This document shows positions 5,221 through 59,058 of a stretch of 64,000 nt of DNA, one piece after another. Numbering within the stretch: position 1 is the stretch's first letter; each line of letters opens with the position of its first letter. A model generated the notes under the pieces. It was not told the origin of the DNA. It made no database searches and was given only the letters and a program-made list of their open reading frames with translations. Source of the stretch: Leishmania mexicana MHOM/GT/2001/U1103 (Eukaryota; Euglenozoa; Kinetoplastea; Trypanosomatida; Trypanosomatidae); the NCBI RefSeq assembly GCF_000234665.1, contig NC_018329.1, positions 124,001 to 188,000 of the forward strand. Reading direction: 5' to 3'. A program made the translations under genes and the position numbers.

Positions 5221-8200
5221 TCACTCGACGCGCATGCGCTTTGCCAGCGGCAGCTCCTCCTTCCGGCCTTCATCGTGATGCACGAACGGGGGCAGCGAGG
5301 TAAGCACGTTCGGAGCAAGACCGCGGATGACGTAGTCGATGTAGTACGTGCGTCGAAGCAGGTCGTGCTGGCGCTGGCTGTGCTTGCGCGTGTAAGCCAA
5401 CAGCGGCTCGATCAGCGACGCCATCGACGGCACCTGTGCGACGGCCTCGAAGTGGCGTGAGGAGATGAGTACATAGAGCACCAGAGTAGCCACCATGCAG
5501 TGACGGCTGTTCGTGATCCACTCTCGCGTGTACTGCAGCAGCCGCGTCATCTGCTCCGCGTCAAGGGCGGGCAGAAGCTCGCCGCGAAGCGTGTTCTCGC
5601 ACTGGCGCGCGTCCTTGGCGCACCAGCGCACGAGCACTTGGCGGAGATGACGCGGGTGACTCAGCCGTAGGGCCAGCATAAAAGCCTCTGAGAACTCGCC
5701 ATTCCGAAGGGCGTTGGAGAGCGCCTGCTCCTGCAGGATCATCGTGTGCCGGTCCTCCTTGACGCGGGCCACCTCCTCGGCGGTGTAGTCCTCGGTCGCG
5801 ATCAACACGCCGTCGGCGGCGCCGGAGTAGAAGATCGTCTCACCCGAGGAGGGGCGCTCCTCCACCGCCAAGGCCCATATCTTCTCCGTGTGCGCCTCCG
5901 CCGCCCAGACCGACTCCGAGGACGCGATGGCCCACACACGCAGCACGCCCTCCGCGTTGGTCGTCACAATCTGCGTGCCGTTGTTGAAGAAGCTCAGCTG
6001 CAGTACCGACGTGCGGTCCACCTGCATCGCCTTCAAGCACGTCAGCGACACCAGCGACCACAGCCGCACCGACCCGTCATTCGACGCCGATGCCAGGACG
6101 CGATCGACCGGCGAGAAGGCGAGGGATGTGATGCCACGCCGATGCCCCTTCAAGGAGGCCTCGCGGTACATCTTCTTGCCTGTGATGTTCCACACATTCA
6201 CCGACTTATCCTTGCCCCCAGTCGCGACGTACTGGTCGTTGGGCGCAACAGCCACGGTGTAGATGGGGCCCGCATGGGCCGCGTTCACGCCGCTCCGGTG
6301 CTGTATCTCCTCCACACGGGACCGCGACTGCTTTGCCGACGCACGCCCCGCCAGAGGGACGCCGATGTCCCACAAGCGCAGATTCTCGTCGCTGGAGACA
6401 GAGAAGAGCAGCAGGTAGGTGTCTGTCTGCCTCCCGTTAAAGGACAGCGATGTCACCTCCGCTGTGTGCCCGCCAACACCGCGCACGACGGTCTCGCACC
6501 TCTCGGTCGACCACACGCGCACCTCCTTGTCCTTGGCCCCGGTGGCGATCCACGCCCCGTCACTGCTCACGGCGCAGCAGAGCACCACGTCACTGTGGCC
6601 GCGCAGAGTCTGCGAGGAGACGCAACCGTCTGAAGCGTACAGGCGCACATCTTTGCTGTTGGTTACCACAGCCCGGTGCAGCGGCGAGGCCTCAGGGAAC
6701 AGCTTCACGTCGAGCAGCTGATCCAGAAAGCCGACAACCGTGCGGGTCACCTCGTACTGGCTGCGCTCCGTCGATGAAGGGCGCAGGTACTGAATGTTGA
6801 ATCCCGCGTCACCAACGTACAAGGAGGAGGTGTCCGGCGCGTGCGGCGCGTCGTGCACCACCAATCCGCGCAGGCGGCGCATGCCCGTGCCCTTTGGCTT
6901 GCCGGCCACGACCAGAGACCGCACAAACGCTTCCTCGGCGCTGTCCTCGGCGTCCGCGGCCGGCGGCTTTGGAAGCCGGCGCACAACCTGTACCGCCTCG
7001 GCCTCGCTCACGCGGTAGGTGGAGACCACGCCGTCCATCGCGCCAACGTGAAGTAGCCCGGCGCTCTCGAAGGCGGCGCTCGACACGTGCTCTTTCACCA
7101 CAATCGCGCGCACCTCCTGCAGCTCCGTCGACTTGCGGTTCTCGCTGAACATCATCTTGTTCAGAGCGAGACGGCGATCCCTGGCGATAGAGTAGACGTG
7201 TGTGAGCGCGTCGTTGAAGACCATGGACTCGACCGCCTGCACGTGCGGCCGCCCGGCCGCCACTATCCGCTTCGTCACAAAGTCGAAGACGGTGACGTGT
7301 CCCTCAAAGGAGCCGACGGCGAGGTAGGCCTCGCTGGGGTCGAGGCAGACGCTCTGCACCAGCGAGCTGTGGGCGCACACCAAGTTGTGCGTGAGGTGAT
7401 GATGAAAAACGTTCCACACCTTCACGCTGCCATCCGTGGCACCCGAAACGAGGTAGGTGCCACTCTGGGAGAAGTGCACGACCGAGATGGCGTGCTGCGC
7501 CGCCGTCCAGTTCCGCTGCAGCTCGATCGAGTACTGTACAAGAGTCCCGGTAGCGGTTTCCGTGCCGACTACATCCGCATCACCGCCTTTCGCCTCTGCA
7601 GCGTTGCCTTCTTCAGAACCGGTGTCTGCACCGGCACCCTTCTCCCCTGAAGGAGAGGACGAGGGTGAGGCCGGCGACTCAACGCGGGCGTCAACGCGCA
7701 GCACGTAGACCTGCAGAGAGCGCGTGCCAACCGCAACGTAGCTGCCAGCAGGTGCAGCGAGCACCCTGTCGTCCTGAGAGGTGGCCGCCTCGCTTGAGGA
7801 CGGCACCACGGATGGCACGGCTACCTTCTTCTCCGCTTGGACGGCGTTGTCCTCGTCCCCCTCGTTCAGCTTGACTGTCTTGCCGGCCCTGGCCTTTTTC
7901 TTGGGAGACTTCTTCGCCGTGGCCGACTTCTCCGCCGCGCTGGCGTCGCGCTTCGTCCCCGCCTCTCCCTCATCTACGCCTGCGGCGTCTTTGCCGTCGT
8001 CATCCGACGCCTCGGGCACCGTCACGGCGTCAATGTGGAGAATCACATCCTCTACTGGCAGCGTGTACCTGCATAGCACCTCGCCACTTGTTGCCCGCAC
8101 GACGTTCACGGTGTCGCCGCACGCCATGATGAGGCATTCCTCTAGAGCGGCCGACGTGGAAAGTGCAGACGAGGCAGCGGAGGCTGACACTGGAAGCGCA

Positions 8201-8274
8201 AGAGAAGCCAACGCGCCGCCACTGAAGATAGGCTCCTGCGTCCATCGCGTGCGGAAGCAGTTCTTCCCTTCCAT
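5221..8274 (-). CDS. UTP13: UTP13, WD40 U3 snoRNP / SSU processome protein
   Basis: This 1017-residue protein resembles UTP13 (human TBL3), a scaffold of the UTP-B part of the small-subunit processome that acts on pre-18S rRNA in the nucleolus. Many WD40 repeats are readable, ending in units such as SGATDGSVKVWN, ATGAKDKEVRVWS, ATGGKDKSVNVWN and ASASNDGSVRLWS. The last ~180 residues (from about 835) fit the helical Utp13 C-terminal domain, with a stretch like LQEQALSNALRNGEFSEAF. The protein is longer than the yeast homologue (about 800 residues), largely through a low-complexity acidic/Lys-rich insert at about 85-165 (includes PKKKARAGK) and another at 185-240 inside the first propeller. The start at 8274 (MEGKNC) was chosen over an upstream in-frame Met at 8595. 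The extension is Cys/Pro/Ala-rich and lies beyond a good splice acceptor at 8305-8306. Confidence 0.93.
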   Translation of the reverse strand: MEGKNCFRTRWTQEPIFSGGALASLALPVSASAASSALSTSAALEECLIMACGDTVNVVRATSGEVLCRYTLPVEDVILHIDAVTVPEASDDDGKDAAGVDEGEAGTKRDASAAEKSATAKKSPKKKARAGKTVKLNEGDEDNAVQAEKKVAVPSVVPSSSEAATSQDDRVLAAPAGSYVAVGTRSLQVYVLRVDARVESPASPSSSPSGEKGAGADTGSEEGNAAEAKGGDADVVGTETATGTLVQYSIELQRNWTAAQHAISVVHFSQSGTYLVSGATDGSVKVWNVFHHHLTHNLVCAHSSLVQSVCLDPSEAYLAVGSFEGHVTVFDFVTKRIVAAGRPHVQAVESMVFNDALTHVYSIARDRRLALNKMMFSENRKSTELQEVRAIVVKEHVSSAAFESAGLLHVGAMDGVVSTYRVSEAEAVQVVRRLPKPPAADAEDSAEEAFVRSLVVAGKPKGTGMRRLRGLVVHDAPHAPDTSSLYVGDAGFNIQYLRPSSTERSQYEVTRTVVGFLDQLLDVKLFPEASPLHRAVVTNSKDVRLYASDGCVSSQTLRGHSDVVLCCAVSSDGAWIATGAKDKEVRVWSTERCETVVRGVGGHTAEVTSLSFNGRQTDTYLLLFSVSSDENLRLWDIGVPLAGRASAKQSRSRVEEIQHRSGVNAAHAGPIYTVAVAPNDQYVATGGKDKSVNVWNITGKKMYREASLKGHRRGITSLAFSPVDRVLASASNDGSVRLWSLVSLTCLKAMQVDRTSVLQLSFFNNGTQIVTTNAEGVLRVWAIASSESVWAAEAHTEKIWALAVEERPSSGETIFYSGAADGVLIATEDYTAEEVARVKEDRHTMILQEQALSNALRNGEFSEAFMLALRLSHPRHLRQVLVRWCAKDARQCENTLRGELLPALDAEQMTRLLQYTREWITNSRHCMVATLVLYVLISSRHFEAVAQVPSMASLIEPLLAYTRKHSQRQHDLLRRTYYIDYVIRGLAPNVLTSLPPFVHHDEGRKEELPLAKRMRVE

Positions 8275-9184
8275 TTTTGATACCAACGGTAGAGAGATGG
8301 GGAGCTGAGGTGGTGCAAAGAAGCAAGCTGGCGCGCGCGCACCACTAGACCCACACACGGGGTAAGGGGCCAACACAGAAAACAGGAGAGCTAAAGTGTG
8401 TGCAGCAGTGACTGCGGGGGGGGATGTGGAGAGAAATGATACGAGGACGTCAGCGCCTGCAACAGACGATGCGAGTTCCAGTTTCGGGCCCCACACCAAT
8501 GGCGTGAGTGGCTCTAGCAGGCGAGGGTGGGAGGAAAGCGGATGTAGTAGACAGCATGGAGACGCACGCCCGCACGCATGCATGCACCAAAACACAGGGA
8601 AGACAAGGAGTTGGACACACGAGAAGGCGGTGTACGCGAAAAGGGAGTGCGCATGTGTGCTCCCGGCGTGTTTAGGCGCAGAGGCACGTAACGACGTGGT
8701 GTCGACAGGAGCTTTCTCGGCTTAGGCCCGCACGAATAGGCGAGTCCCGACGAGTGAAAAGTACCCCTCGTGGCGGATAGACAGCGCGTCATCAACTGTG
8801 CCACCAACGCCACCACCACCTCTCTCTCCCCTCTCCCCATGCCCTCGTCACTCCTGCATGTGTGCCTCTAAAAACAGCGTGCACCGCTAAGGTTCATCTT
8901 TCGTCGTCGAGAGAGAGCGCGGGATGGCATTGACCCTGCATCAATTCAAACAGCCTTTACGGAACATATCATACAGCGGAGGCCGCCCCGCCCCGCCAGT
9001 GGGCGGACGGGAGGGCCACGCCGCCTTTGCTGGCCTCCCCTTTGTTTTTCAACGCCGGCTACGGACACACACAAGCAAACACCTGAATGCGGACACAACG
9101 ACGAAGAGCAGAAGATTGCAGGACAGCAAGGCTGTGCCGACCACTGGGTACGCAGCTCTCCGCCCTACTCTGGCGGCGTATTCT
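8275..9184. other. Spacer between UTP13 and BRF1
   Basis: About 0.9 kb without a supported gene. Open frames across it are shadows or extensions of UTP13 with biased composition. The part near 9184 should be the BRF1 3' UTR and polyadenylation region. Confidence 0.55.
8305..8327 (-). promoter_or_regulatory. Putative trans-splice acceptor for UTP13
   Basis: On the minus strand a pyrimidine-rich stretch ends in CACCTCAG, with the AG at 8306-8305. This would leave a 5' UTR of about 30 nt before the ATG at 8274. Inferred from sequence only. Confidence 0.4.
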
Positions 9185-11296
9185 TCAGTCCCAGTCCGCG
9201 TGTGGCTCATCCTCGAGCCCCTCCAGCATGCCAGGAAGTAGCTCATCGATTTGGGAGATGTTCACCGTGCCAGCGCCGCGGCCGCGCAACGCCCGCTCCA
9301 TCGCCGTTGGTATGTCGACCGCGGGCTCCGCAATAACGCTGCGCCGGCGCCGCTTCGAGGCTCGCGCCTCCTCCAGCTTTTGGATTTCCTCATCCGTCCG
9401 TGCACGCCCGCGCTTCCATTTTTCGCCGTAAAGGGAGACGCCGATGCGCTCGCGTCGGAGGCGCTCCTCGTTGTCCAGCACGAGGTAGGGCAGGATGTCC
9501 GTGCAGTCATCTTCCTCGACCCGCGGTAGTACGAGGAACTCCCACGGCAGGGCGTGTCGCCGCTCGCGGTCGTACAGGATCTCCTCCAGCGCTAGACGGA
9601 CCCCCTCGTCGTCGCGGTCAAAGAACCCGAATGGATCCTCCTCTGCAGGGGTTCCCGGCAGAGGGCTGCCGCCGCGTAGCTGCGAGAGCCCGCAGCTGAA
9701 GGACTGGTTCTGAGTAGGGTGACTGACAGACGGGGCCACCGCGGCGCCTCCAGAGCTACCACCAACCCCATTGGCGTCATCCTCGTCAGCAAAGTCGAAG
9801 TCGCTGCGCAGGTGCATCACTTCCGCATTGCTGTTTAGCAACCGCGTGTACTCATCCGTCATCCACCGCAGCTGCTCCTGCGAATCCATCGCGGCGGCCC
9901 CAACGGCGGCCGACGCAGAGTGCATGCCTCCGTCGTCGGCGTACCCCACCGCTGGCGACGTCTTTGCGAGCGAGGACGCCAACGACTCTTCAGGCAGCAG
10001 ATAAAGAGGAATACCAGTGGATGACACATCCGCATCGTTCAGCAGCCCCGCGGCTGCCCCCTGCCGCATGCCACCCATGCTGCCCCCCGCGTCGCTGCCG
10101 TTCTGAAGAGACGCCTCGCGCTTGATGAGGAGGCGGTGCTCCTCCCTCTTAACACTGCGCGCCACCTCCTCTAGCGGGATGGGCTTCGTGTGCGGCAGAC
10201 CCAATATGTGCAGCTGCTGTGTCGGCGACAGCCCTTTCAGATCCAAATTCTCCTCCAGCGGCGTGATGCCCTCCAGCTCGCAGTGCTTCATGATGAACCG
10301 GCGCCACTTGTCACACCGCTCCGGCGTTGCGGGCTGCGACGTCTTCGCCTCGGAGACAAGCTCGTAGAAGATGGCCGACAGCTCCCGCATACTCGCGTGG
10401 ACGTCCTCCTCGGTGGATTTGCGGCTCGAGTCGTTGAAGGCTGGCGGCAAGGTCTCGTGCGATGGCTGATAGTCGTCGATGTTCTCCAGACGCGCCGTTG
10501 GTGTCGCCGCAAACTCGGTCAGTCGCTTGCCGATTGTGTTGGACGTGAGTCGCACCATCCCGCACACCTGCTCCGGGGTGCGTGAAATGCCAAAAACGTA
10601 GCACGCCACGAGCAAAGCAGCAGCGCACACACCCATCGGTCGCCTGCCACAGCTAATCCAGTCATCCTGCATGGCGCGCAGCACCTTGAGAGCGCACACA
10701 ACCACGTCCGTCGTCTGCGGTCCGAGGTCCATCTGTTCGGCAAACCGCTGCACGTAGCACGACGGGTCGATCACGGGCACCTCGGTGTGGGTGGCGTGGC
10801 AGATGTACTTCATCTGCGATAAGATCGTGTGCGGGTCCTCGCCGTTGAGCTCGGAGAAGTCGTAGATGACGTGCGACGTACGCTCACGCCGGCATGCCGC
10901 GTACAGGCAGGCGCATAGCACACTTGGCCGTGTGCCGGAGACTGCGTTCAGGTTGAGCGCCACCTTGTATATGCCGAGGGCACGCTCCACCGTATCTTCG
11001 CTGATCTCGAGCTGCCGGCTGATGTTCAGCATCTCTCGGCGGGCTTTGTCGATGGTGGGGCGGGAGTGAGAGTGGATCATGCTCGTGTTGGTGCCTTTGT
11101 ACGAGGTGGCGGGGCGGAAGCTGCCGGCAAGACCGCGAAGGCCGCCGCCGCTGGCCGGCTGTCGACCGCCCTGGGCGAAGATAGGGTCTAGCTCGTACTG
11201 GTCGCTCATGACGACATCGCCGCAGATGGTGCACGTCGTGCGCCCATTTTGCCGATCTACGAAGAGGGCAGAGGTGGGATGGGTGCAGCTCGACAT
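9185..11296 (-). CDS. BRF1: BRF1, TFIIB-related subunit of RNA polymerase III factor TFIIIB
   Basis: This 703-residue protein has the TFIIB-family layout. An N-terminal zinc ribbon uses Cys4, His6, Cys22 and Cys25. Two cyclin folds follow at about 85-168 and 176-263; the second carries the typical GRRPMGVCAAALLVACY and a helix-turn-helix-like region with VCGMVRLTSNTIGKRL. A conserved Brf1 block near residues 565-645 (LALEEILYDRER onward, then a basic KWKRGR stretch) separates BRF1 from TFIIB. It recruits RNA polymerase III to tRNA, 5S and U-snRNA genes as part of TFIIIB with TBP and BDP1. The middle 300-560 segment is Ser/Gly-rich and probably disordered. The start at 11296 gives the zinc ribbon immediately, and a good splice acceptor lies 17 nt upstream. 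Oddity: the first zinc pair is Cys-x-His rather than Cys-x2-Cys/His. Confidence 0.94.
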   Translation of the reverse strand: MSSCTHPTSALFVDRQNGRTTCTICGDVVMSDQYELDPIFAQGGRQPASGGGLRGLAGSFRPATSYKGTNTSMIHSHSRPTIDKARREMLNISRQLEISEDTVERALGIYKVALNLNAVSGTRPSVLCACLYAACRRERTSHVIYDFSELNGEDPHTILSQMKYICHATHTEVPVIDPSCYVQRFAEQMDLGPQTTDVVVCALKVLRAMQDDWISCGRRPMGVCAAALLVACYVFGISRTPEQVCGMVRLTSNTIGKRLTEFAATPTARLENIDDYQPSHETLPPAFNDSSRKSTEEDVHASMRELSAIFYELVSEAKTSQPATPERCDKWRRFIMKHCELEGITPLEENLDLKGLSPTQQLHILGLPHTKPIPLEEVARSVKREEHRLLIKREASLQNGSDAGGSMGGMRQGAAAGLLNDADVSSTGIPLYLLPEESLASSLAKTSPAVGYADDGGMHSASAAVGAAAMDSQEQLRWMTDEYTRLLNSNAEVMHLRSDFDFADEDDANGVGGSSGGAAVAPSVSHPTQNQSFSCGLSQLRGGSPLPGTPAEEDPFGFFDRDDEGVRLALEEILYDRERRHALPWEFLVLPRVEEDDCTDILPYLVLDNEERLRRERIGVSLYGEKWKRGRARTDEEIQKLEEARASKRRRRSVIAEPAVDIPTAMERALRGRGAGTVNISQIDELLPGMLEGLEDEPHADWD

Positions 11297-18990: not shown

Positions 18991-21900
18991 TTACGAGTTT
19001 TCCACAGCCACATCCTCCGCACATCGTGCTAGTTGGCGGCGAGTGCCGCCGCGCTTAATGGAGATCAAAATGTACCCAGCGATGGCCGCTAGCAGACCCA
19101 AGTAGGCGAACAAAAACGCGAGCCTCTGTCCCAGTGACACGGGGTTCATGTTTGTGTCACCGCTGGAGTCTGTGGTGGAACATGAGGAGGAATCGGCGCT
19201 GCTGCGGCTCTGAGAGCCGCCGATGTCGCTGCTGCCGCTGTCCTCGGTCTCCGTCCCGCAGACGGAGATGACCTTTGTACGCCTGTTCCTGCAGAGACAC
19301 TGATCTGCCAAGGCGAGCCCGGAGGGGCACGCGGTGCTGGCTTCCATGGCGAGCGCCAACGGCGACAGTGCCACTGTCAACGGGGTCGCTGTCACGTGCA
19401 TGCCATCAAGCGTCACGTGAATCACGTACGGTATGTGCTGCACACCGGCCGGGAGGCCAAGGACGGCGTCTGGCAAAGCCACCGCGAACGCCGTCGCCGC
19501 AGAAGGCCGTGCCGTCACGCGGCGCAGTAGCTGTAGCGACGAGGACTTTTTGTCCGCGGTCGGGTTCCTTGTCACGTTCTCGTACACGTCTATCACAATC
19601 ATCTCCGTCGGCTGGAACTGGCCTCGGAGCAGCAGCATCACCCCCGTCAAGTCTTCAGGCACCTCGCTCGAGTTCATCTTGTAAAAAAGGTACGTGATTT
19701 CGTCCCGCCCCACCGATAAATTCTCAGCAGAGACAAAGAAAACACACGTCTGCGCAGCCCCCGTTGTGGGGCCGAGGGAAGCGTCCAACACCTCCAGTGG
19801 TCGCGTGTAGCGGTTCAGCGGGCCGATGTTCACGGACGCAGCACCGCCAAGTTGCGTCGCCGCATCGATCGGGAACGGCACCGACCCCCAGCCTGCGCCG
19901 TTGAGCGAGTATGCTAAAGACGCGTACGCGCCAGCCGGGACGGCGGCCATGGAGAGAGAGAAAGCCACGCCCTCCATGTCGGGTGGAACAAGGCCTCCGC
20001 ACTCCTCAGCGGGCACGGCGGCTACAGTCGGCCACGGCTGCACCACCACATCCAGGTAGTGGTCAACCGCTGGGGTGGCAGTGCCACCCGTGGAGAAGCT
20101 GAAGGGCACCTCGTAGAGGGCGTTGCTGATGTAGCTGCAGAGCTTGTACTGCCCCGCCATGGGCACCCGGAAGGTGAGGTAGGTGGAGCCGTCGGTGCTA
20201 GGCGAGACCCGCGACGACCTGGCAGCCGGCGGAGGATACGGAGGCATCTCGGGGATGGCCTCAGGCAGCACGCCGATATCCTCGCAGCTGTAGTCGCTGC
20301 GCACCAGGTGGTACGCGCCGGCATCGGCGTGGAAGCCTGACACATGCACTGTGATTGGCAGGCCCGTGTACACCTGCGCCGTCATGCGTGTTGGCGTGGC
20401 CACATGCCACGACGTCGCCAGCATAGTCTCACCGCTGGTCTCATTGCGCACGTCCGAGAGGACGCCGCGGTGCTGCAAGTCCGTGAGACACTCACCCATG
20501 CGGCCGTACATGTCTGCCTGAATCGCCACCGCTAAGCCCGTCATGCGCATAGCCACGACCGGGCCGAGAGCGTCTATCGAGAGCAACTCGGTGGAGTAGA
20601 AGTGTAGACACGAGGCGAGCTGCAGTTTGAGAGCCGTGATGCACGACGGGCTCGCCGGCACACTCGTTGTGGCGCAGTCGGGAATCGCCGAGAAGTACGG
20701 CGTGGCTGACGCGCCCAGGGGGTAGAGGGAGTACGCACACGTGGTGCGTGGACTGTCCTCCTCGAGTGGGTTCAGTGAGTGGGCCGTCACGTACACCTCC
20801 AACGTGGTAGGCTCCTGGATGGGCTTGCTCTGGAGAACGTCGTACACAAAGACAGCGTCATCGTCCGCGGAGCGGGTGATCATAGGGATGCGCGCTCCGC
20901 CGCTGGCAGAGGCAGAGACGGACCTCGACGTGGCCAGGTCACCCGGCAGTAGGTTCGACACGTTCAGCTCCATCTGCAGCGAGAGCGCAATAGCCGGGAA
21001 GCTGGTGCCGCACGCGGGGGTGAAGGTCGGTGGCTGCATCGGCACAGCAACGAGCTGCAGGACCGCCGTCGTCGTGTGCGTCGCGTGCAAATCGTCTGCG
21101 TAGGTGCAAGTCACCGTGTACGCGCCAGGCTCGTTCAGAGCAGCGGAGAAAACGTCTTCCGCCACCGCGTCCTGCATCAAGGCGTCGCGGTACACCGACA
21201 GCGCCACTGGTCTCCCGAGCGGCGCCGTGCATGTTACGTTGACGGAGCGGTGGTGGGCGATGGAGGAGTCGGGCAAGATGGTTGGCGGCGTCGCTGGCAC
21301 CACCTCATAGACGACCTTTTCCACCGACTCGATGCCCTCCACGTGCAACGCGCGAATGTCGACCTCGCTGGTGCCGATGGCAGTCCACGGGAAGAGAAGC
21401 GTGCCGAGCGACTTCCAGTCGGTAGACTGGTTCACGTACATATAGTACGTCGCTGGTGGTTGCGGGTCACTCACGAGCACGGTCACACCGCCGACATAGG
21501 TACCAGAGGGCGGGTAGACATTTAGAGGTGGTGCCGTGATGTTGAGCTTGTAGCTGGCGGACACTAAGTACGTGCTGTTCACCACCGCCACGACGTTCGT
21601 CGACCTCTTCACGCGGAAGGCGCCGCCGGTGTAGGTGGTGGGGTTCATGAAGTCGTCGTCCCAGAAGAGGAGCACCTCAGTGGCATTCGTGATGCCCTGC
21701 AGCTCTACGAGGATAGGGTGAGAGTACACGACGGCATCGCTGGGAATGAACTGTATCGAGGTGGCCGGGGTTGGGGTCGCGGTCGTTGTCACGGTGTACC
21801 GCGCCTGCGCACGCATCGGCTCCGCCGTCTCGTACCTCACGTACGTCTTCACAGTCGTCGACTGCTCCAGCAAGAGCGGCTGTGTGTACACGGACGACGC

Positions 21901-22449
21901 TGCAGATGCGATGGCCTCGGCGCCGAGTACGTAGTGGATGCGGCACGGCCGGGGGTGGCAGCTGATCGCCAGGTAGCTGTCGCTGCCATCAGCCGACCTC
22001 TTCGTACCGCTCACGGGCCAGAACTGCACCGTCGGCGTCGCAAAAGGTTTCGCCGTGCAGACGGCCCTGATCGCGCAATACTGGTGGGCGCCACCGGGGG
22101 TTGCGGCGAGGCAGCTTGGCCCCTGCAGCCCTTCTGCGTCGCGGCAGTAGTTGTGGTGTCCCACCCCGGTGGCCGAGTCCAGCGGCATCTCGTGGCTGTG
22201 TGGCGTCTGCGAGGACCACAACTGGCACGGAATGCCGTCCTCGGATACGTTCACCGTACCGTGGAAGTTCTGTCCGTCAGGGAGGTAGTACACATGCGTG
22301 AGGCTGCCGCACGCGCAGCCGGCAGCAGCGGCGCGAGTCGCGTAGACAGGCTCCACAGCCGCGCTGACGAGGAGCAGCAGCACCGCCGCGGCAAGCATAA
22401 CCACCGCGCCGGTCACAGACGTAGGGGCGCACATAGTTCGTGAATACAT
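18991..22449 (-). CDS. Large type I surface protein with N-terminal kringle-like domain
   Basis: This 1152-residue protein has a signal peptide (hydrophobic VVMLAAAVLLLLVSAAV ending near VYA at ~37), a long Thr/Ser/Pro-rich ectodomain, one transmembrane helix at about 1110-1131 (LAFLFAYLGLLAAIAGYI), and a 21-residue cytosolic tail starting KRGG. Residues ~45-131 read as a kringle: six cysteines at 47, 75, 102, 113, 125 and 131, with PHSH at 83-86 and NYCR at 100-103. After it, residues ~165-207 (CRIHYVLG to TTVKTYVRY) resemble Fn3-associated/CHB_HEX_C modules, followed by further beta-rich Ig-like repeats with several N-x-S/T sites. A Cys-rich motif (CLCRNRRTK) and a Ser-rich stalk precede the membrane. 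This suggests a cell-surface or endosomal adhesion or receptor role; the ligand is unknown. The start is 22449, or 22434 (MCAPT). The long N-terminal extension to 23235 is low-complexity and rejected. Confidence 0.87.
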   Translation of the reverse strand: MYSRTMCAPTSVTGAVVMLAAAVLLLLVSAAVEPVYATRAAAAGCACGSLTHVYYLPDGQNFHGTVNVSEDGIPCQLWSSQTPHSHEMPLDSATGVGHHNYCRDAEGLQGPSCLAATPGGAHQYCAIRAVCTAKPFATPTVQFWPVSGTKRSADGSDSYLAISCHPRPCRIHYVLGAEAIASAASSVYTQPLLLEQSTTVKTYVRYETAEPMRAQARYTVTTTATPTPATSIQFIPSDAVVYSHPILVELQGITNATEVLLFWDDDFMNPTTYTGGAFRVKRSTNVVAVVNSTYLVSASYKLNITAPPLNVYPPSGTYVGGVTVLVSDPQPPATYYMYVNQSTDWKSLGTLLFPWTAIGTSEVDIRALHVEGIESVEKVVYEVVPATPPTILPDSSIAHHRSVNVTCTAPLGRPVALSVYRDALMQDAVAEDVFSAALNEPGAYTVTCTYADDLHATHTTTAVLQLVAVPMQPPTFTPACGTSFPAIALSLQMELNVSNLLPGDLATSRSVSASASGGARIPMITRSADDDAVFVYDVLQSKPIQEPTTLEVYVTAHSLNPLEEDSPRTTCAYSLYPLGASATPYFSAIPDCATTSVPASPSCITALKLQLASCLHFYSTELLSIDALGPVVAMRMTGLAVAIQADMYGRMGECLTDLQHRGVLSDVRNETSGETMLATSWHVATPTRMTAQVYTGLPITVHVSGFHADAGAYHLVRSDYSCEDIGVLPEAIPEMPPYPPPAARSSRVSPSTDGSTYLTFRVPMAGQYKLCSYISNALYEVPFSFSTGGTATPAVDHYLDVVVQPWPTVAAVPAEECGGLVPPDMEGVAFSLSMAAVPAGAYASLAYSLNGAGWGSVPFPIDAATQLGGAASVNIGPLNRYTRPLEVLDASLGPTTGAAQTCVFFVSAENLSVGRDEITYLFYKMNSSEVPEDLTGVMLLLRGQFQPTEMIVIDVYENVTRNPTADKKSSSLQLLRRVTARPSAATAFAVALPDAVLGLPAGVQHIPYVIHVTLDGMHVTATPLTVALSPLALAMEASTACPSGLALADQCLCRNRRTKVISVCGTETEDSGSSDIGGSQSRSSADSSSCSTTDSSGDTNMNPVSLGQRLAFLFAYLGLLAAIAGYILISIKRGGTRRQLARCAEDVAVENS

Positions 22450-24552: not shown

Positions 24553-27500
24553 TCAAACGGACATGCGAGACGACTCCCACAGCAACATCAGGTCCCGCTG
24601 CACCGCCCACTCGGACGAATCCTCCGTTGCCGTCGTCGTGCGCTCGATCGAGGCGATTGACGTGCGCCCGGCCCCGCCACGCTCGCTGCCCGATACAGAT
24701 ATCGAACGAGTGCGCCCTTCACCGAGAGGGCGAGTATGTGCAACACCTGTGCTTCGCTGAACCGACGAGGGACGTGGGCGGGTAAGCACCAGTCCCTCGG
24801 GGTTGCTGTACTCCCGTCTCGAAAAGTCCGTTGGCAATGCCACGTGCCGCGGCAGCGTCGCAGTGATTCCGCTCCCGCGCCGTCCTCCATGTCGCTGCGC
24901 CTCCTCAGACGCGACTGCGCCGCTGTTGTTGTGCTGGCGGCTGTCCGCCATGCGCGTCGCACGCGCCTCCTGCCGCCGTACGTGATGTGCGAGCGATTGC
25001 GCATCCTCGCGACGGCTCGCTCTTATCAACTGTGACAGCAACACCGCCTCTGCTGACTGTACTGCCTCGCGCCTCAGCTGCGATGTGCGATGAGCAGCGG
25101 CGGTTGCTCGTCGAACCTCTTCCTCGATCGCTGCCGTGCCCTGACTCGCACACCGTGCGAGATGAGATGGGCGACACCGCCGCAGCTCCGCCAAGGTCGC
25201 CTGCCGACGCGGTTGAAACGCCTTTGCACCCGCCCAGACTTCGTTCCTCGCCTCCTCGTAGACGCGCAACGCCAGACGTGCCTCCTGCCGCGCCACGCCC
25301 TCGGCGGACCGCCGCTGCGTCTCGTACGCGTTTATCTGCACGACGGCGCCAACCAGTTCGCCCTCCAGCAGCTCCAGAGTCTCCGTCCATCCCTGCTGCA
25401 GCCGACTAGCATTGTCGCTAAGGTGTTGCGTAGTGTAAGTGAGGGCTTTCGCCCGCTCGCAGACTGCCTGCGCCAGCTGTGCGTCCCTCGCACGCTCGAG
25501 AGCCTCGCGCTCCCGCATCTCCGCCGACGCCGGCGCTGCCGCGTTCCCGAGGCAGCTGTTGGTAGAACGCCGTGACCGGCGATATTCCTGTTCGCGTTGC
25601 TGCCGCCCCTGCTCGTGCACAAAGCAAAGGCGGCGGCGGGCAAGGAAGCCGCGGCCCGTCTCTTGAAGGTGCCGCACGGCCGCCTCGCGTAGCTCCGCGC
25701 AGCACGACTGTATGGCCGCCACAGCAGCAGATCTCAGAAAAACGGCACTCACCCCAAGCACTACACTGCCATCGCTGCAACAGGGTACCTCTGCGAGCGC
25801 CAGTAAGCACAGCTCGCGGTACCGTGCCTGACTTTGCAGATGACGCACTCGGCTCAGAAACTCCGCGACCACGTCGTCAGACACCATGGCACGCATGCGT
25901 AGCCGTGGCGTGCGTACAGAAGCGCTGGAGCCGGCGTCGGTTACCGTGCGCAGAGTGCTCTCGCTCAGAAAATCTTCCCAGCCCTCCACAGCTTCCGAGC
26001 TAGTCGCCGCTGTATTGTGTGGTGACGCTCTTGTAGACGGCCGCCACTGTGCATACGACGTTAACAGTGGCACCGCACACACCTTCGCAAACACCGGCAC
26101 CGGGCATACGTGGCAGTGGCAGAGGCGAGACCAGAAGAACAAGGCGAGTAGCAGCGGATCGCGCTCATGCAGGTGTGTCGCCAGGGCGTCGTCGCGCGTC
26201 AGCCCCACCCTCGGCGCAGATGCGGAGGACACTGGTGCTTCGTGGGGAAGCAGCGGCTCGAGGAAAGGGCACGCGCCTGGTGAGCTCCACTGGTGCTGGT
26301 CCAGGTCGCCGGCATCCGGCAAAGGCCCCCAACTCGCAGTCTCCGCTAGGACGGGAACGGCGAGGATGACATACCAGAAGTCGGGCGAGAGAGTGACGGT
26401 GTTGCCGCCACGATGACCGACATGCATCGCTATGTCAGCAATGGAGCTGCTATTGCGGAGACGACGAGCGAGTATGAACTGCAGGGCTTCGTGGGCAGAG
26501 CACGGACTTAGCGGAGGTGAAGCACTCATTCCCCCCTCTCCATCACGGCCGTCATCCACACGATGCAGTGGGCTCTGCACCATGTGTGCTTCGCCCCTCA
26601 ACCGGCCTTCAGGTGAGATGCCCGCGGAGGTCAAAGACACGCACCGCTTGCTCACGCCACCTATGATCTGCTGCATCGCTGGCGTGGTGCCCGTCACGCA
26701 GAGGCGTGCAGCGGCAAAGATGTCGGCAGCAAGGCAGCGTACAGAGAGTCGAAGAGGGGGGTGCAGACCACACGGAAAGGTGAGCACAAGAGCTCCATCA
26801 CACGCGCTGCTGTCGGCAGACGCCGTGCTCTCCCACGTGCATACCACCTCTGCTGCCGGTATGGCTGTGTCGACCTCGTCGCTGGCTGTTGCCTGACGCG
26901 CCGATGCCGCCAGCGCCTGAAGCTGCTCCGTGAGTAGACGCTGCACCGCTTCTGGAGAAGACAGAGGCGGCGCCGCGGAGATATCGGTGCCGATACACCT
27001 CGACGTTACTGCCTCCAGAATGTGCGCCAGCTCCGCTACCACAGGGATATCACGTGTAGTGTCACCGAAGTCGTAAGCACCGGCAGCGGTGTGAGTGCTG
27101 ACGATGGTGCCTCCCCCTCGCTGCTTCGCCCATGGGATCATGACCCGCGTCGAAATCTCGCGCACCTCTGCGGCTACTCTGCCCAGTCGAAGTGCTGTGG
27201 TGGTGGGTGCAGTCGATGCGGCGGAGAGCTCATCAAGCCAGCTGTCCACCTCCAGCCCCACTCCTTCGTAGCACGCCTCGCGTTGCAGTGCGCCGACGAG
27301 CCGATCGCGTACAGCCATGGCGGCGTGGCAGCGTGCGTACGCAGCGAACCACGCCGTAAGGCCGCCTCCAGACCCTTCGTGACGCTCCTCGTGTGCGTCG
27401 GGCATGTGAGCATGTTGCTCCTGTGCCGTCGTGTCGTTGGTATCGACGGTGGCAGCAAGGGTGAGGGTGCGCGCCTCCGTAGCGACGTGGCCACCAACGT

Positions 27501-29622
27501 GAAGGGCTGTGTTGGTGAGATGCAACAGCGTGCTCACCACCAGTCCGCCGAGGTGCGCCACGAGAGTGCGCTGCATCTGCGTCGCGCCGGCGCAGTTTAA
27601 GGCATGCCGCGTTGTCCGTGAGGTGGACTGGACACCCTCGCGTGTCGCCACTGTCGTCAACGCGGCGACAAGCTCACTCGCTGGCAGGCGCAGAAGCTTG
27701 GCGGCAGCGTTCAGTGCCGGCAGCGACTTGGGGGAGACCGCTGCAGGGCCGCCGCTGGAACCCCTCTGTGATGTGAACTTCAGCGAGGCGAGATACAGCA
27801 CACTGTAGGCCAGCTCATGCAGGCAAGTCTGTTGCTCGGCTGTGAACTGAAGGGTGTTCATGCAGGCGTCAAGCCCTGACAAAGACACGTGAGCATGCGA
27901 AGGATTCGAGGAAGATGTTGCATACACCTGCGCCGGAGTCAGAGTCAACGCTGTCGAGTGTGCCGCGCACCACGGGAGTTGCAGGTAGTCTGGCTCTGGT
28001 GTGGGGCGAGAACCTTCGACCGGCCAAGCAAGACCCGCAGCGGGGGAAAACGCTGCCACGCGCCGCACACGCCCCCGTAGGAAGCGATAGCGGCGCTGCA
28101 GCTCTGGTGGCTCGCAGCGCCTGTCATCGTCCTCGCACTCCTCGAGAACCACATCCAACGCGTCAACCACAACGCTCGAGCTCGCTTCACCGCGGTCACA
28201 GATATGTCTCCCCGGCACACTGCCAGCGGGTCGCAGTGCGTCAAGAAGGTAGAGGGCTGCCCTGAGCCTCCGCACATGCGCGTCACTCTGAGTCGCAAAA
28301 GCGGGTTTAGTGTCACCCCGCACATCAGCGGCGTGGCGGAGCGCGAGTCCTCTGCGATGCCGCAGTGTCGCCTGCCGCTCCCCACAGCAAAGAACAGTCT
28401 GCGACGACAGGCGCGCCCATCGGCGTAGGAGATGTTGCGACACCTTCGCGGCCCATGCCTCGAAGCTGTGGTCGAATGCGTCGTCTCCCTCTTTCTCGTG
28501 TGGCGCAGACGGCGATGTCGTCAACTGCGTCGTCACAGCTGGTGAGCGAGCTCCTGGGGGGCGTGTCGACGGTGGCGCCGCTGGCAGAGAAGACACCGCC
28601 GACACGTACACATCTGCCGTTAATGCCTCCTCGTATTGGGTAAAGTCGCTCCCCTCTGCAAAGATGCTGGCGCTGCTGTCCAGGATAGAGAGAGGCGGGG
28701 CAACGGTATCGTGCACTGTCCCCTGCTGCCGCTGCTGCAGTAGAGCGTAGACAAGCGCGCCACACGTCGGCGATTCACGAAGCAGGACATCGAGCGCGGC
28801 TGACGCTGCAGCCGTCACCTCCACAGCATCGGCCGGCACATCACTGCTTGAAACCCTGCGCACCAGGAGATCGGCGCTCGTGTTGAGTGGGATGACAGCC
28901 GCGGGATTCATGCACACGTAGAGGGGTGTGACAAGAATGTCGTGCAACATCCAATCTTGCGACGCCATCGGCCTCGAGGATGCGGCTGCGCACAGCCGAG
29001 GAGGTGCTCGATCGGCTGCCGCGGTGCCTGAGGAGACGGAGATGCAGGCCCAGAGAGCGGCGCGACACATCGCCAGCTGCTCTGCAGGTAGCGGCTCCAG
29101 CGTGAACCACCAGTGTGCCGGAGAAAACGAGGGAGAAGCCGCTTCCGCATCACTGCGGGCGGGCACGGCCGCTCGCCAGCTGGGATCGACCTCGTACGCT
29201 ATGCACCAGTGCCCGCCACGCAACGCAGATCGGTGGGCGCTCGCTTCGTCTTCCGCGTTGTCTGTCGTGGCCAAGGGACGGCCACGCGAAGCGCTGAGGT
29301 CCCGCAAGAGGTCTGCCTGCGCGCTCGACAAGGACACAAACTGACGTGTCGTGGACGGTGCCACGTATACGAGAAGCTGATAATGGCCCCCGTCGGTGGG
29401 CTGCCGCCGCCGCATCACAGATCTGCCCATGTACAGCCGAGGGCTGCGCGCACGGGACGACACTCCATCATCGAGAATAGCATTACTGCTCCTTCTCTTG
29501 CCATGATACTCGACGAGTTGAGATGGCGATGTCGACGAACAAGTGGCGTTGGGAGATGAGGAAGATACCGAGATGGCGCTGTACGGACTTGATGCGTAGC
29601 GCGCCTGGTCAGTAACAGACAT
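24553..29622 (-). CDS. Very large protein with IQ-like motif and basic helical C-terminus
   Basis: This 1689-residue frame is uninterrupted over 5 kb, with protein-like composition typical of Leishmania (Ala/Arg/Ser/Leu-rich). Around residues 1305-1330 the sequence AVRHLQETGRGFLARRR fits an IQ motif (IQxxxRGxxxR) and would bind calmodulin or a related EF-hand light chain; an imperfect second copy may precede it (AIQSCCAELREAA). The following ~300 residues are rich in Arg, Glu, Gln and Ala and likely form long helices or coiled coil. The last ~130 residues are Ser/Thr/Arg-rich and probably disordered. The N-terminal 1300 residues hold no domain I recognise; several stretches look globular. There is no signal peptide or transmembrane helix. 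A cytoskeletal or flagellar role is plausible from the IQ-plus-coil design but not shown. Start at 29622 (MSVTDQ) is the first in-frame Met. Confidence 0.85.
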   Translation of the reverse strand: MSVTDQARYASSPYSAISVSSSSPNATCSSTSPSQLVEYHGKRRSSNAILDDGVSSRARSPRLYMGRSVMRRRQPTDGGHYQLLVYVAPSTTRQFVSLSSAQADLLRDLSASRGRPLATTDNAEDEASAHRSALRGGHWCIAYEVDPSWRAAVPARSDAEAASPSFSPAHWWFTLEPLPAEQLAMCRAALWACISVSSGTAAADRAPPRLCAAASSRPMASQDWMLHDILVTPLYVCMNPAAVIPLNTSADLLVRRVSSSDVPADAVEVTAAASAALDVLLRESPTCGALVYALLQQRQQGTVHDTVAPPLSILDSSASIFAEGSDFTQYEEALTADVYVSAVSSLPAAPPSTRPPGARSPAVTTQLTTSPSAPHEKEGDDAFDHSFEAWAAKVSQHLLRRWARLSSQTVLCCGERQATLRHRRGLALRHAADVRGDTKPAFATQSDAHVRRLRAALYLLDALRPAGSVPGRHICDRGEASSSVVVDALDVVLEECEDDDRRCEPPELQRRYRFLRGRVRRVAAFSPAAGLAWPVEGSRPTPEPDYLQLPWCAAHSTALTLTPAQVYATSSSNPSHAHVSLSGLDACMNTLQFTAEQQTCLHELAYSVLYLASLKFTSQRGSSGGPAAVSPKSLPALNAAAKLLRLPASELVAALTTVATREGVQSTSRTTRHALNCAGATQMQRTLVAHLGGLVVSTLLHLTNTALHVGGHVATEARTLTLAATVDTNDTTAQEQHAHMPDAHEERHEGSGGGLTAWFAAYARCHAAMAVRDRLVGALQREACYEGVGLEVDSWLDELSAASTAPTTTALRLGRVAAEVREISTRVMIPWAKQRGGGTIVSTHTAAGAYDFGDTTRDIPVVAELAHILEAVTSRCIGTDISAAPPLSSPEAVQRLLTEQLQALAASARQATASDEVDTAIPAAEVVCTWESTASADSSACDGALVLTFPCGLHPPLRLSVRCLAADIFAAARLCVTGTTPAMQQIIGGVSKRCVSLTSAGISPEGRLRGEAHMVQSPLHRVDDGRDGEGGMSASPPLSPCSAHEALQFILARRLRNSSSIADIAMHVGHRGGNTVTLSPDFWYVILAVPVLAETASWGPLPDAGDLDQHQWSSPGACPFLEPLLPHEAPVSSASAPRVGLTRDDALATHLHERDPLLLALFFWSRLCHCHVCPVPVFAKVCAVPLLTSYAQWRPSTRASPHNTAATSSEAVEGWEDFLSESTLRTVTDAGSSASVRTPRLRMRAMVSDDVVAEFLSRVRHLQSQARYRELCLLALAEVPCCSDGSVVLGVSAVFLRSAAVAAIQSCCAELREAAVRHLQETGRGFLARRRLCFVHEQGRQQREQEYRRSRRSTNSCLGNAAAPASAEMREREALERARDAQLAQAVCERAKALTYTTQHLSDNASRLQQGWTETLELLEGELVGAVVQINAYETQRRSAEGVARQEARLALRVYEEARNEVWAGAKAFQPRRQATLAELRRCRPSHLARCASQGTAAIEEEVRRATAAAHRTSQLRREAVQSAEAVLLSQLIRASRREDAQSLAHHVRRQEARATRMADSRQHNNSGAVASEEAQRHGGRRGSGITATLPRHVALPTDFSRREYSNPEGLVLTRPRPSSVQRSTGVAHTRPLGEGRTRSISVSGSERGGAGRTSIASIERTTTATEDSSEWAVQRDLMLLWESSRMSV

Positions 29623-55831: not shown

Positions 55832-57802
55832 TCACGACGTGCCGGCGCTTACCTGTGGTGTGGCAACGAGCCCCACGAGGTCGCAGAAGAGCTTGCTCTT
55901 GGACACCTCCGCGAAGGTGCCCTCAACAGCAACCTGGCCCTTGTCCAGTACGAGTATGTGGTCCGCCTTTCGGATCATGCTCAACTTGTGTGCAAACATG
56001 AGCACCGTGTGCTGCCGCTTCGAGTCCTTCGACTCTTCGATCAGGCGCGAGATGGCGTCGTGCACCACCACCTCACTCTCGCTGTCGAGCGCAGACGTCG
56101 CCTCGTCCAGGATGGTGATACGCGGATTGTGCATCAGGGCACGCGCGATGGCGATGCGCTGCTTCTGCCCGCCAGACAGGCTGCGGCCGCTCTCGCCAAC
56201 GAACGTGTCGTACCCGTCCGGTAGCGCGGAAATGAAGTCGTGCGCGTTGGCCTTCCGGGACGCCTCGACGACGGCAGCGTAAAGCCAGCGATCGATTGGA
56301 TCATCCCAGTTGCGGCCTGGAGTGCCGTAGGCGATGTTCTGTGCGATGGACCCGCCAAACAGCACCGGCTCCTGCCCAACGTAGCCAATGTGCTCGTGCA
56401 GCCAATGTGAGCTGATGTCGCGGAGGTCGTGTTCGCCAAGCTGCACAAAGCCGGCTGTCGGCTCGTATAGCTTCAGCAGCAACATGGCCAAGGACGACTT
56501 GCCGGAGCCGCTGCTGCCGACAACGCAAGTGCAGCGGGATGGCTCGATGGTGAGGCTCATGTTTCTGTAGATGAGCGCCTCCGGCCGCGTAGGGTAGGCG
56601 AAGGACACGCCCTTGAAAGTCACGCGCCAGTTGCACGTAATCGGCGTCAGCTGTTTGCATGCTGTGTGCTTCTGCCGCACTGCCTCGGCCTTGTCCAGGA
56701 TGTCAAAGAGCCGCAGCGAGGCGCCGTAGCCTTTATTAATCTCGGTGGCCAGATTCGTCAACCCCATCAGCCCAATGCCGCAGTACACCGTATACAGCAT
56801 AAAGGAGAAGAGAACGCCAGGGGTCAGATGGCCGGAGGTGACGAGCATCGAGCCGGCCCACATGATACAGTACATGGCACCATACCCCACCGTCTGCAGT
56901 GACGCAACGTAGACGGAGTTCCAGCGCACCATGCGCATGCTGAGATCGAAGACACGTTGGACGTTCTTGCTGTACCAGGACTCCTCCTGCGCCTCGGTGC
57001 CGAAGGCCTTCACGGTGCGGATGTTCGACAGCCGCTCCTCGGCGACGGTGCCCATGTCGGCCAGGGCATCCTGCATGTTGTGCTGCAACTTACGAATGTA
57101 ACGGCCGTACGAGCCGGCGAAGATGGCCACCGGCGGTATCATACACACAATCACGCTCGTCAGCAGCGGTGAGTAGTAGAGCATCACGGTGATGCTGCCG
57201 ATCGTCTGCAGTAGATTCTTGCTGCCGTTTGTCACCGCCTCTGTCAGGGAGCTGCCCACAACGTTGCAGTCCATGGACAGTCGTTGCACGAGCGCGCCGG
57301 TGCGGTTCTCTGTGGAGTCGAAAAACGCTGCCGGTTGCCGCAAGATGCCGCTGTACAAGGCGCGGCGCAGCTTCGCGATAATGCTCTCGCCTGCGTAGCC
57401 GATGCAGTACAACCGCAGGTAGTTGCCCGTCGCACAGAGACTGAACCAGCCCAGCAGTTGCATCGACGTGCCGAGCGGCATCTGCCCTCTGCTTGCTTGG
57501 TCGATGAGCGCACCAAACCCGGCGGGAATGGCGAGTGTGGCCGCGCTGTAGATGCACACCCCCACCACGGCGCCGGCAATGTACGGCGCCTGGTCCCGAG
57601 CAGACCGCACATAGCGGGCAAAAGAGCCCTTCCGCGTTGCCGGCTCTGTCACATAGATGAGGCTTTTGCTTGCCGTGGGGCGCTGCGCTGGCGTAGCGTT
57701 GCCATAGTCAGTGCGCAGACGAATGTCGGAGGCGAGCCGCCGCACGCTTGTCAAGGCGGTACGCGAGACGGGCTGCCAGACAAGCCGCGAGGAGCTCCGC
57801 AT
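55832..57802 (-). CDS. Mitochondrial ABC half-transporter (ABCB family)
   Basis: This 656-residue protein is a half-size exporter: one transmembrane domain (helices between about 72 and 350) followed by one nucleotide-binding domain. Visible motifs are Walker A GSSGSGKSS (429-437), Q-loop Gln477 (YVGQEPVLF), signature LSGGQ (542-546), Walker B ITILDE (562-567) and the switch His605 (AHKLS). All are intact, so it should hydrolyse ATP as a dimer. The N-terminus (MRSSSRLVWQPVSRTALTSV) is Arg/Ser-rich without acids, typical of a mitochondrial presequence. The arrangement resembles MDL1/ABCB10 and related inner-membrane peptide or metabolite exporters; the substrate cannot be told. Leishmania has a TAP-like ABCB gene in this region, listed as ABCB1 as I recall. 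Start at 57802 is chosen because a strong splice acceptor lies 54 nt upstream; an upstream Met at 57967 is rejected. Part of this gene reappears inverted at 53461-53888. Confidence 0.93.
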   Translation of the reverse strand: MRSSSRLVWQPVSRTALTSVRRLASDIRLRTDYGNATPAQRPTASKSLIYVTEPATRKGSFARYVRSARDQAPYIAGAVVGVCIYSAATLAIPAGFGALIDQASRGQMPLGTSMQLLGWFSLCATGNYLRLYCIGYAGESIIAKLRRALYSGILRQPAAFFDSTENRTGALVQRLSMDCNVVGSSLTEAVTNGSKNLLQTIGSITVMLYYSPLLTSVIVCMIPPVAIFAGSYGRYIRKLQHNMQDALADMGTVAEERLSNIRTVKAFGTEAQEESWYSKNVQRVFDLSMRMVRWNSVYVASLQTVGYGAMYCIMWAGSMLVTSGHLTPGVLFSFMLYTVYCGIGLMGLTNLATEINKGYGASLRLFDILDKAEAVRQKHTACKQLTPITCNWRVTFKGVSFAYPTRPEALIYRNMSLTIEPSRCTCVVGSSGSGKSSLAMLLLKLYEPTAGFVQLGEHDLRDISSHWLHEHIGYVGQEPVLFGGSIAQNIAYGTPGRNWDDPIDRWLYAAVVEASRKANAHDFISALPDGYDTFVGESGRSLSGGQKQRIAIARALMHNPRITILDEATSALDSESEVVVHDAISRLIEESKDSKRQHTVLMFAHKLSMIRKADHILVLDKGQVAVEGTFAEVSKSKLFCDLVGLVATPQVSAGTS

Positions 57803-57856
57803 CTCGGAGGTGAAGCAGGGAGAAGTGAAAGAAGGAGAGATGGCAGAAAATATGTG

Positions 57857-57887
57857 CTGAAAGCAAGAGAAAGCACGGGAGGGGGGG
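57857..57887 (-). promoter_or_regulatory. Putative trans-splice acceptor for ABC transporter gene
   Basis: The minus strand reads GTGCTTTCTCTTGCTTTCAG, with AG at 57858-57857. This is a clear polypyrimidine tract plus acceptor, giving a 54-nt 5' UTR before the ATG at 57802. It also supports the short start over the longer frame. Confidence 0.6.
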
Positions 57888-59058
57888 CTCGGCGAGAAGA
57901 GAAATCCGGAGAACGGGAGAGAGACGTCGGCTCGTGTGTGTGTGTGTGAGTGTGTGAAGAAAAGCACGTGTGCAACTGAGACAGAGTTTCACGGAGATGA
58001 AAGCAGGCAGAAGAAGCCAACGAGAGATCGGCCTCTGCTGCTTCGATGATTGTGGTGGCTCAAAGAGGGGGGAGCGCTATGCAAGCCGCGTGGGGGTGGG
58101 GGTGCACCAAGTGGATCCCCTCCGCCGTCCGCAATGTAGCAATAATGGCCAGACGACAGAGACGCGAAAGAGAGGAGGGAGAACGTGCACGGCACAGAGG
58201 ATTTTTTTTAAAAATGTAGCTGTGCACCACTGAGAGTGGCGGAGGAGGTGAAGGCACGAAGGCTTGTGCGAAGGGCGTGCAATAGTTTTTTCCCTCTTTG
58301 GCGAGCGTTTGTCCCCCGCGGGTACACGCGTCATTGACAAGGTTGACCTCTCTGCCACCACGGCCGCCAACCTCGCGCATAGAGGGCAACAGCGCCATTC
58401 GAGATGAGGTGTATTCTCGGAAGGCGAAGCACAGCAGAAGGAGCAGAGAAGGAGGAGCCGCGAATGCCCCCCCTCCTCCTAAGCCCCTCTCGTCAACCTC
58501 GTACCTGTCGCTGCCCTCCGTTTCCTCGCCAGGGTCATCTGCAGAGAGCCCGTGTCCGAGAAAGCGCAAGAGAGAATGGGGGGAAATCAATGTACCCTTT
58601 TCGCCCTCACCCCCATCCTCATCACCAGCATCCGACACGGTGCCTGCCTGGCGTGGCCCAACCAACCGCAGCCGAGAACTCAGATCGGGTTGCCGATGAG
58701 GAGGACGACAAAAGAATGTACGCCGCTCGCTTCCTTTTGTTGTTGTCGTTCCGTTTTGCTTTTGTTTTCCGAGGACGCATGCCTCTTCACGTCGCTGTTT
58801 GTGGTTTGTTTGGAGGGAGAGGGGGAAGGGGGAGGAGGGGGAGGGGTGTCAATCAAGCACATGGTGTGTGCGTACCCCATGCCTTCGTTTCCCTCCCCCT
58901 CCCTCTCCATCTCTCTCCATCTCTCTCTCTTGTGGACATCAAACACGGAAAACAAATGGGAACGACCCAAAGACGGAGACCCGACGGCACAACGACAACA
59001 ACAACAACGAAAAAAAAGGAAGAGAAAAGGAAACATTGAATCGCAGAGAATCGGCCTC

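Follow-up and report, generated by a model that had tools for sequence, protein, structure and literature searches.

A single-kringle membrane protein family of Leishmania and Trypanosoma with reversed constraint on the kringle in the Leishmania and Porcisia lineage

The window, i.e., the whole 64,000-nt stretch of Leishmania mexicana DNA that was analyzed, has on its reverse strand a coding region at 18991..22449 that translates into 1152 residues plus a stop codon, with no internal stops. The product is a trypanosomatid type I membrane protein with a single kringle at the N-terminus of a beta-sandwich ectodomain, and it is presumably located at the cell surface. All of its segments are read from the reverse strand. 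A hydrophobic N-terminal stretch, residues 14-32 (22354..22410, hydropathy 2.71), is a probable signal peptide. It is followed by the kringle domain, residues 45-131 (22057..22317), a first beta-sandwich domain at residues ~137-226 (21772..22041), the rest of the ectodomain at residues 227-1070 (19240..21771), modeled at low confidence and mainly as beta strands, a transmembrane helix at residues ~1111-1129 (19063..19119), indicated by hydropathy (2.30) and by the model, and a short cytoplasmic tail of 23 residues (18994..19062). This predicted layout agrees with the first-pass annotation, which had placed a kringle at the N-terminus of a secreted or membrane-anchored trypanosomatid protein. 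An antisense 241-aa open reading frame overlies the kringle region on the forward strand (21718-22443) and probably occurs by chance.

The beta-sandwich domain that follows the kringle matches two Pfam families weakly. In the window protein it stays below the curated scores of both PF13290 CHB_HEX_C_1 (15.6 against 22 bits) and PF13287 Fn3_assoc (14.9 against 23 bits). The PF13290 cut-off is passed by orthologues P0009, P0010 and P0012 and by all six Trypanosoma proteins, and that of PF13287 by the same six and by P0035. Since these relatives pass the cut-offs, the domain in the window protein probably belongs, in diverged form, to the CHB_HEX_C_1 / Fn3_assoc group. Close to the membrane, residues ~1024-1070 (19240-19380, reverse strand) hold a cluster of cysteines in which C1041 is invariant in alignment A2 and C1051, C1053 and C1064 are conserved in at least 90% of it; possibly the cluster forms a small disulfide knot.

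Several other open reading frames are found in the window, all on the reverse strand. Just upstream of the kringle gene is one of 1689 aa (24553-29622) that has no Pfam match at E<=0.01. The 1124-aa frame at 5221-8595 shows numerous WD40 matches together with a Utp13 C-terminal domain (PF08625, E 2e-36) and encodes a probable small-subunit processome protein. A 703-aa frame at 9185-11296 has TFIIB repeats in two stretches (PF00382, E 7e-31) and is probably a transcription factor of the TFIIB/BRF type, and the 711-aa frame at 55832-57967 displays the membrane and ATPase domains of an ABC transporter.

Kringles are disulfide-knotted modules that are known chiefly from animals, and above all from proteins of blood clotting. 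The first-pass annotation had proposed one here from the order of cysteines and from short landmarks, and its segment corresponds exactly to residues 45-131 in translation. All six cysteines (C47, C75, C102, C113, C125 and C131, spacing 28/27/11/12/6) are found in the order and spacing of a kringle, as are the landmarks GIPCQLW, PHSH, NYCR, GPSC and YC. The window copy has an additional cysteine, C45, two residues ahead of C47. The Pfam kringle profile PF00051 aligns with residues 58-128 (22066..22278) over positions 5-77 of its 79, and scores 46.8 bits with the whole protein (E 3.8e-12, Pfam cut-off 34.3) and 51.6 bits with the cut-out segment (E 1.2e-13). In a phmmer search of the PDB with this segment the best matches are plasminogen (E 1.1e-47 with five kringles summed, about 1e-12 for kringle 4 alone) and hepatocyte growth factor (HGF), and the kringles of prothrombin, apolipoprotein(a) and ROR are also matched. 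Judged by these sequence comparisons, the call is one of true homology and not of chance cysteines. It should be noted that the domain call itself is not new, because several orthologues are already entered in NCBI and UniRef as "Kringle domain-containing" or as "Kringle domain family protein".

Structure modeling adds little for the kringle itself. A full-length AlphaFold2 model from 16 sequences has a mean pLDDT of 44.5 and a kringle below 50; with residues 40-226 and 22 rows the beta domain is confident and the kringle is again below 50. The matches listed from PDB fold searches with these models cover mainly the beta domain and include no kringle, and they are uninformative on the kringle because that region is unconfident. 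The window kringle may still fold, as all six cysteines are kept and its score is above the Pfam cut-off. It is the one kringle detected in the source genome (32.0 Mb, 545 contigs), and a protein search of that genome gave a single match, with no second copy of the protein.

Full-length protein searches, with about 8000 candidates scored in each, gave 15 proteins. The named sources are Leishmania, Porcisia, Novymonas and Leptomonas, and the others are P0003, P0012 and P0016. Closest to the window protein are P0003 (98% identity) and the proteins of L. donovani (87%) and L. major (85%); LPMP_250480 is one identifier among the orthologue database matches. When the kringle of Leptomonas seymouri was used as query, 42 candidates were scored and 25 matched. 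Six of these are Trypanosoma entries new to the family (T. theileri, T. melophagium, T. grayi, two from T. rangeli, and T. cruzi marinkellei), some of them named "putative hepatocyte growth factor-like", and one is the relative P0035. The rest are four known family members and 14 others, including 12 named animal proteins. Identity of the seven added members to the window protein is 31-41% across the family alignment, in which G64 is the first and C1041 the last invariant column, and all seven pass the PF00051 cut-off. The predicted layout of the family is a signal peptide, the kringle, a beta-sandwich ectodomain, one transmembrane helix and a short tail.

Thus, by sequence, this kringle protein family spans both Leishmania and Trypanosoma, with members in Porcisia, Novymonas and Leptomonas as well, which fits the "ancient protist module" offered as one reading in the first-pass annotation. 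The Pfam cut-off is passed in 21 of the 23 members scanned, the window protein included; P0005 of L. major falls below it (30.9 against 34.3 bits) and P0017 of L. martiniquensis gives no match. Some of the models are odd. P0004 of L. donovani has a C-terminal extension of 250 residues past the transmembrane helix, and P0009 (L. panamensis), P0013 (L. enriettii) and P0017 have internal gaps, all of which may be either real changes or gene-model errors. P0011 and P0017 were excluded from alignment A3.

The PF00051 scores differ widely between lineages. The kringle is well kept in the six Trypanosoma (66.3-71.6 bits) and in the four Leptomonas-type proteins (65.3-67.7, with 66.7 and 67.7 in Leptomonas). 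Scores in the middle are those of Novymonas (57.0), L. panamensis of the subgenus Viannia (56.1, the best Leishmania scanned) and P0035 (53.4). L. enriettii, L. sp. Namibia and L. orientalis have 45.0-53.1 bits, the window protein 46.8 and P0003 46.7. Low scores are found in L. tarentolae (38.0), Porcisia (36.2), L. donovani (35.5) and L. major, and L. martiniquensis is without a match.

The constraint on the kringle is reversed in Leishmania and Porcisia as compared with Trypanosoma and the Leptomonas-type species, with no such shift in the rest of the protein. This is the new observation here. In sliding 87-residue windows that compare the four Leptomonas-type proteins with nine from Leishmania and Porcisia (P0003, P0010 and P0017 were left out), the kringle is the slowest stretch in the former, with a mean difference of 0.148 against 0.268 for the rest, and the fastest in the latter, with 0.370 against 0.280; in both cases none of 853 windows lies beyond it. 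Branch rates point the same way. These were estimated from protein sequences on a fixed tree built from the rest of the same protein, with P0017 and P0032 left out and P0003 not in A2; some nodes of this tree have support of 63-82, and its grouping of Viannia with Mundinia (71) differs from the order published in an excerpted part of PMC10747355. Summed per clade, the ratio of kringle to rest branch length is 0.47 in Trypanosoma, 0.57 in the Leptomonas-type species and 1.61 in Leishmania and Porcisia. Among the tip branches, all 11 of the others have a ratio below 1 and 9/9 from Leishmania and Porcisia have one above 1, and an earlier analysis of 14 sequences, without P0003 and P0017, gave an identical split of tips.

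When kringle branch lengths are left free, 2dlnL is 135.1 for 36 parameters, as against 34.9-56.5 in 10 control blocks, each of 87 columns; the kringle has a clade shift of 3.10 and these blocks 0.61-1.26. Five of the 10 control blocks also reach p <0.05, so that nominal p-values overstate significance and the rank of the kringle, first of 11, is the safer measure. Internal branches are less clean than the tips. Within Leishmania and Porcisia three of them have ratios below 1 (0.98, 0.72 and 0.00), outside Leishmania a few have 1.01-1.16 (1.16 on the Leptomonas-type stem), and the stem of Novymonas, Leishmania and Porcisia has 1.55. Thus the onset of the shift is not precisely placed.

The shift is accompanied by the loss of structural residues. 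The 11 other sequences agree fully at 31 kringle columns, and 24 of these columns differ in one or more of the Leishmania and Porcisia sequences, as compared with 29/104 in the rest of the protein; counted as alignment cells the changes are 50/279 against 58/907. With Novymonas and the four Leptomonas-type proteins alone as reference the contrast is smaller (123/468 against 543/3537). C47 is lost in L. orientalis, C75 in L. sp. Namibia, and both C113 and C131 in Porcisia; given the kringle disulfide pairing C1-C6, C2-C4, C3-C5, the two Porcisia losses would strike different disulfides. W78 is lost in five of the nine Leishmania and Porcisia sequences, and the Y62-R63-G64 motif is changed in four. 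In the L. martiniquensis protein the kringle is missing from just before C75 onward. The six cysteines are kept in 6/9 of the sequences used, the window among them, so the kringle fold may still form in these.

Taken together, the account that we consider probable is that of a kringle tip that would not bind lysine, constrained in Trypanosoma and the Leptomonas-type species and relaxed in the Leishmania and Porcisia lineage. The ancestral kringle would most likely have been a small protein- or glycan-binding tip that acted while the parasite was in the insect, or in contacts among the parasite's own molecules. Strong purifying selection would hold it in Trypanosoma and the Leptomonas-type species, and relaxed selection would act on it in Leishmania and Porcisia. 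As no such shift is seen outside the kringle, the protein appears to keep its role there without need for an exact kringle.

Alternatively, host immunity or changing vector ligands might drive an exposed kringle to vary in Leishmania. Such diversifying selection would suit a domain that lies N-terminal in the predicted ectodomain, is the fastest stretch in Leishmania and Porcisia at 1.61 times the rest, and retains its six cysteines in most of the sequences; but the changes also reach structural positions (a cysteine in three species, W78 and the Y62-R63-G64 motif), most of the domain is absent in one further protein, and release from a constraint of about 0.5 times the rest would explain the rate excess without positive selection. 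We regard diversifying selection as rather unlikely. In this protein-level comparison the lost structural residues favor relaxation over selection for surface variation, and we infer relaxed selection and an insect-stage ligand.

According to passages of PMC10747355, Leishmania, Porcisia and Endotrypanum are dixenous, whereas a predominantly monoxenous life is given for Leptomonas and Novymonas; literature excerpts also mention opportunistic occurrence of L. seymouri in vertebrates. A rule by which the kringle is kept in one-host and lost in two-host species was dropped because two-host Trypanosoma keep the kringle well, and thus two-host life is not itself the cause. Insect hindgut development is ascribed in part of PMC5463341 to T. 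cruzi-type trypanosomes and one-host species, with L. tarentolae listed too, and a hindgut phase is likewise ascribed, in an excerpt, to Viannia. A simple story of hindgut attachment fits L. panamensis with its 56.1 bits but not the hindgut-developing L. tarentolae with 38.0, and was set aside. Since phylogenetically the shift counts as a single event, a link to any life-cycle trait is unreplicated.

A kringle tree was made from 14 trypanosomatid rows and from 30 kringles above 20 bits, which come from nine of 14 non-trypanosomatid proteins, seven of them from named animals. The 30 form one group apart from the 14 (support 99.5/100). Among the nine proteins the top scorers with a trypanosomatid kringle profile belong to a hemichordate and to a brittle star, and they share a GDHN(Y/F)CRNP block. 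Animal origin was considered and is not settled by the tree in direction or age, the domain being short and the proteins few; both inheritance and an old transfer are possible. A more elaborate proposal is that an early trypanosomatid took the kringle from an invertebrate host, used it as the non-lysine-binding tip of an insect-gut attachment receptor, and that it was released from selection with a life-cycle change in Leishmania and Porcisia and has since decayed species by species. We consider this distinctly improbable; if true, the kringle ligand would mark something that Leishmania and Porcisia no longer need.

The first-pass annotation had also suggested that the kringle could bind host ligands of the plasminogen type. 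Excerpts of PMC9736318 and PMC8036777, both of which include docking, name Asp55, Asp57, Arg35, Arg71, Trp62, Tyr64 and Tyr72 as the residues through which plasminogen kringle 1 contacts its ligands. When 21 trypanosomatid sequences (P0017 was left out) are aligned without gaps to plasminogen kringle 4, D57 is replaced by L in 20 and by S in one (L. tarentolae), and W62 by G or S in all 21. R71 is retained in only five, all of them Trypanosoma (five of the six), while position 72 is aromatic (Y) in 20/21 and F64 is retained in 17/21. The aromatic trough of the lysine site thus survives in part in most relatives. Where plasminogen kringle 4 has D55, D57, W62, F64, R71 and W72, the window copy reads E, L, S, L, A and H, and the E for D55 is a conservative replacement. 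Asp55/Asp57, Arg71 and the aromatic trough that characterize the K1/K4-type site are not found there as a set, and on its residues the window kringle is without a plasminogen-type lysine site.

It is very doubtful that the Leishmania kringle aids infection by binding lysine-bearing proteins of the host in the manner of plasminogen kringles, despite its clear homology to plasminogen and HGF, the well kept and mostly R71-bearing kringles of two-host Trypanosoma, and the reported binding of plasminogen by L. mexicana, which an excerpt of PMC6167496 attributes to enolase and LACK. Against it are the replacement of D57 and W62 throughout and the erosion of the domain in Leishmania itself. A vertebrate-host role in Leishmania would not predict the high scores of the predominantly insect-restricted Leptomonas and the low ones of several vertebrate-infecting Leishmania such as L. 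major and L. donovani. In two-host Trypanosoma the kringle may have such a role, since the scores there are equally high. It is scarcely credible that the decay is only simulated by faulty gene models or poor assembly of some Leishmania genomes: odd models exist (P0004, P0009, P0013 and P0017), but the shift is present in all nine tips, including the window copy with its intact frame, is driven by substitutions and not by frame loss, and has nothing comparable in control blocks of the same sequences.

Important is the caution that follows for annotation, as the word "kringle" in Leishmania records should not be taken as evidence of plasminogen biology. A single-kringle gene that is constrained in Leptomonas, Novymonas and Trypanosoma and eroding in Leishmania and Porcisia is a receptor-like gene that tracks a lineage split, and it is a concrete target for gene removal. 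Among the matches listed from open-licence PMC, including excerpts of PMC2394772, PMC7729029, PMC6167496, PMC2772990 and PMC10747355, no paper on a trypanosomatid's own kringle protein or on its constraint reversal was found; the excerpts of PMC10747355 do not contain the word "kringle".

The domain resembles the kringles of plasminogen, apolipoprotein(a) and HGF in its six cysteines and in the YRG-type, CQxW, NYCR and PxC landmarks, and its C3-C4 spacing is the same as in plasminogen kringle 4. Unlike those proteins, it has a single kringle, a predicted membrane anchor and replaced lysine-site residues, and the Pfam scan shows neither a protease nor a PAN domain. The Saccoglossus protein LOC144356731 and the Amphiura plasminogen-like protein, at the top of the nine scanned, share a GDHN(Y/F)CRNP block; however these are multi-kringle proteins and the tree groups them apart. 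In layout the similarity is to ROR1 and ROR2, which likewise cross the membrane once and carry a single kringle in their ectodomain (as described in a portion of PMC2772990), whereas the trypanosomatid protein is by Pfam without the Frizzled CRD, Ig and kinase domains and bears its kringle N-terminal on a long ectodomain.
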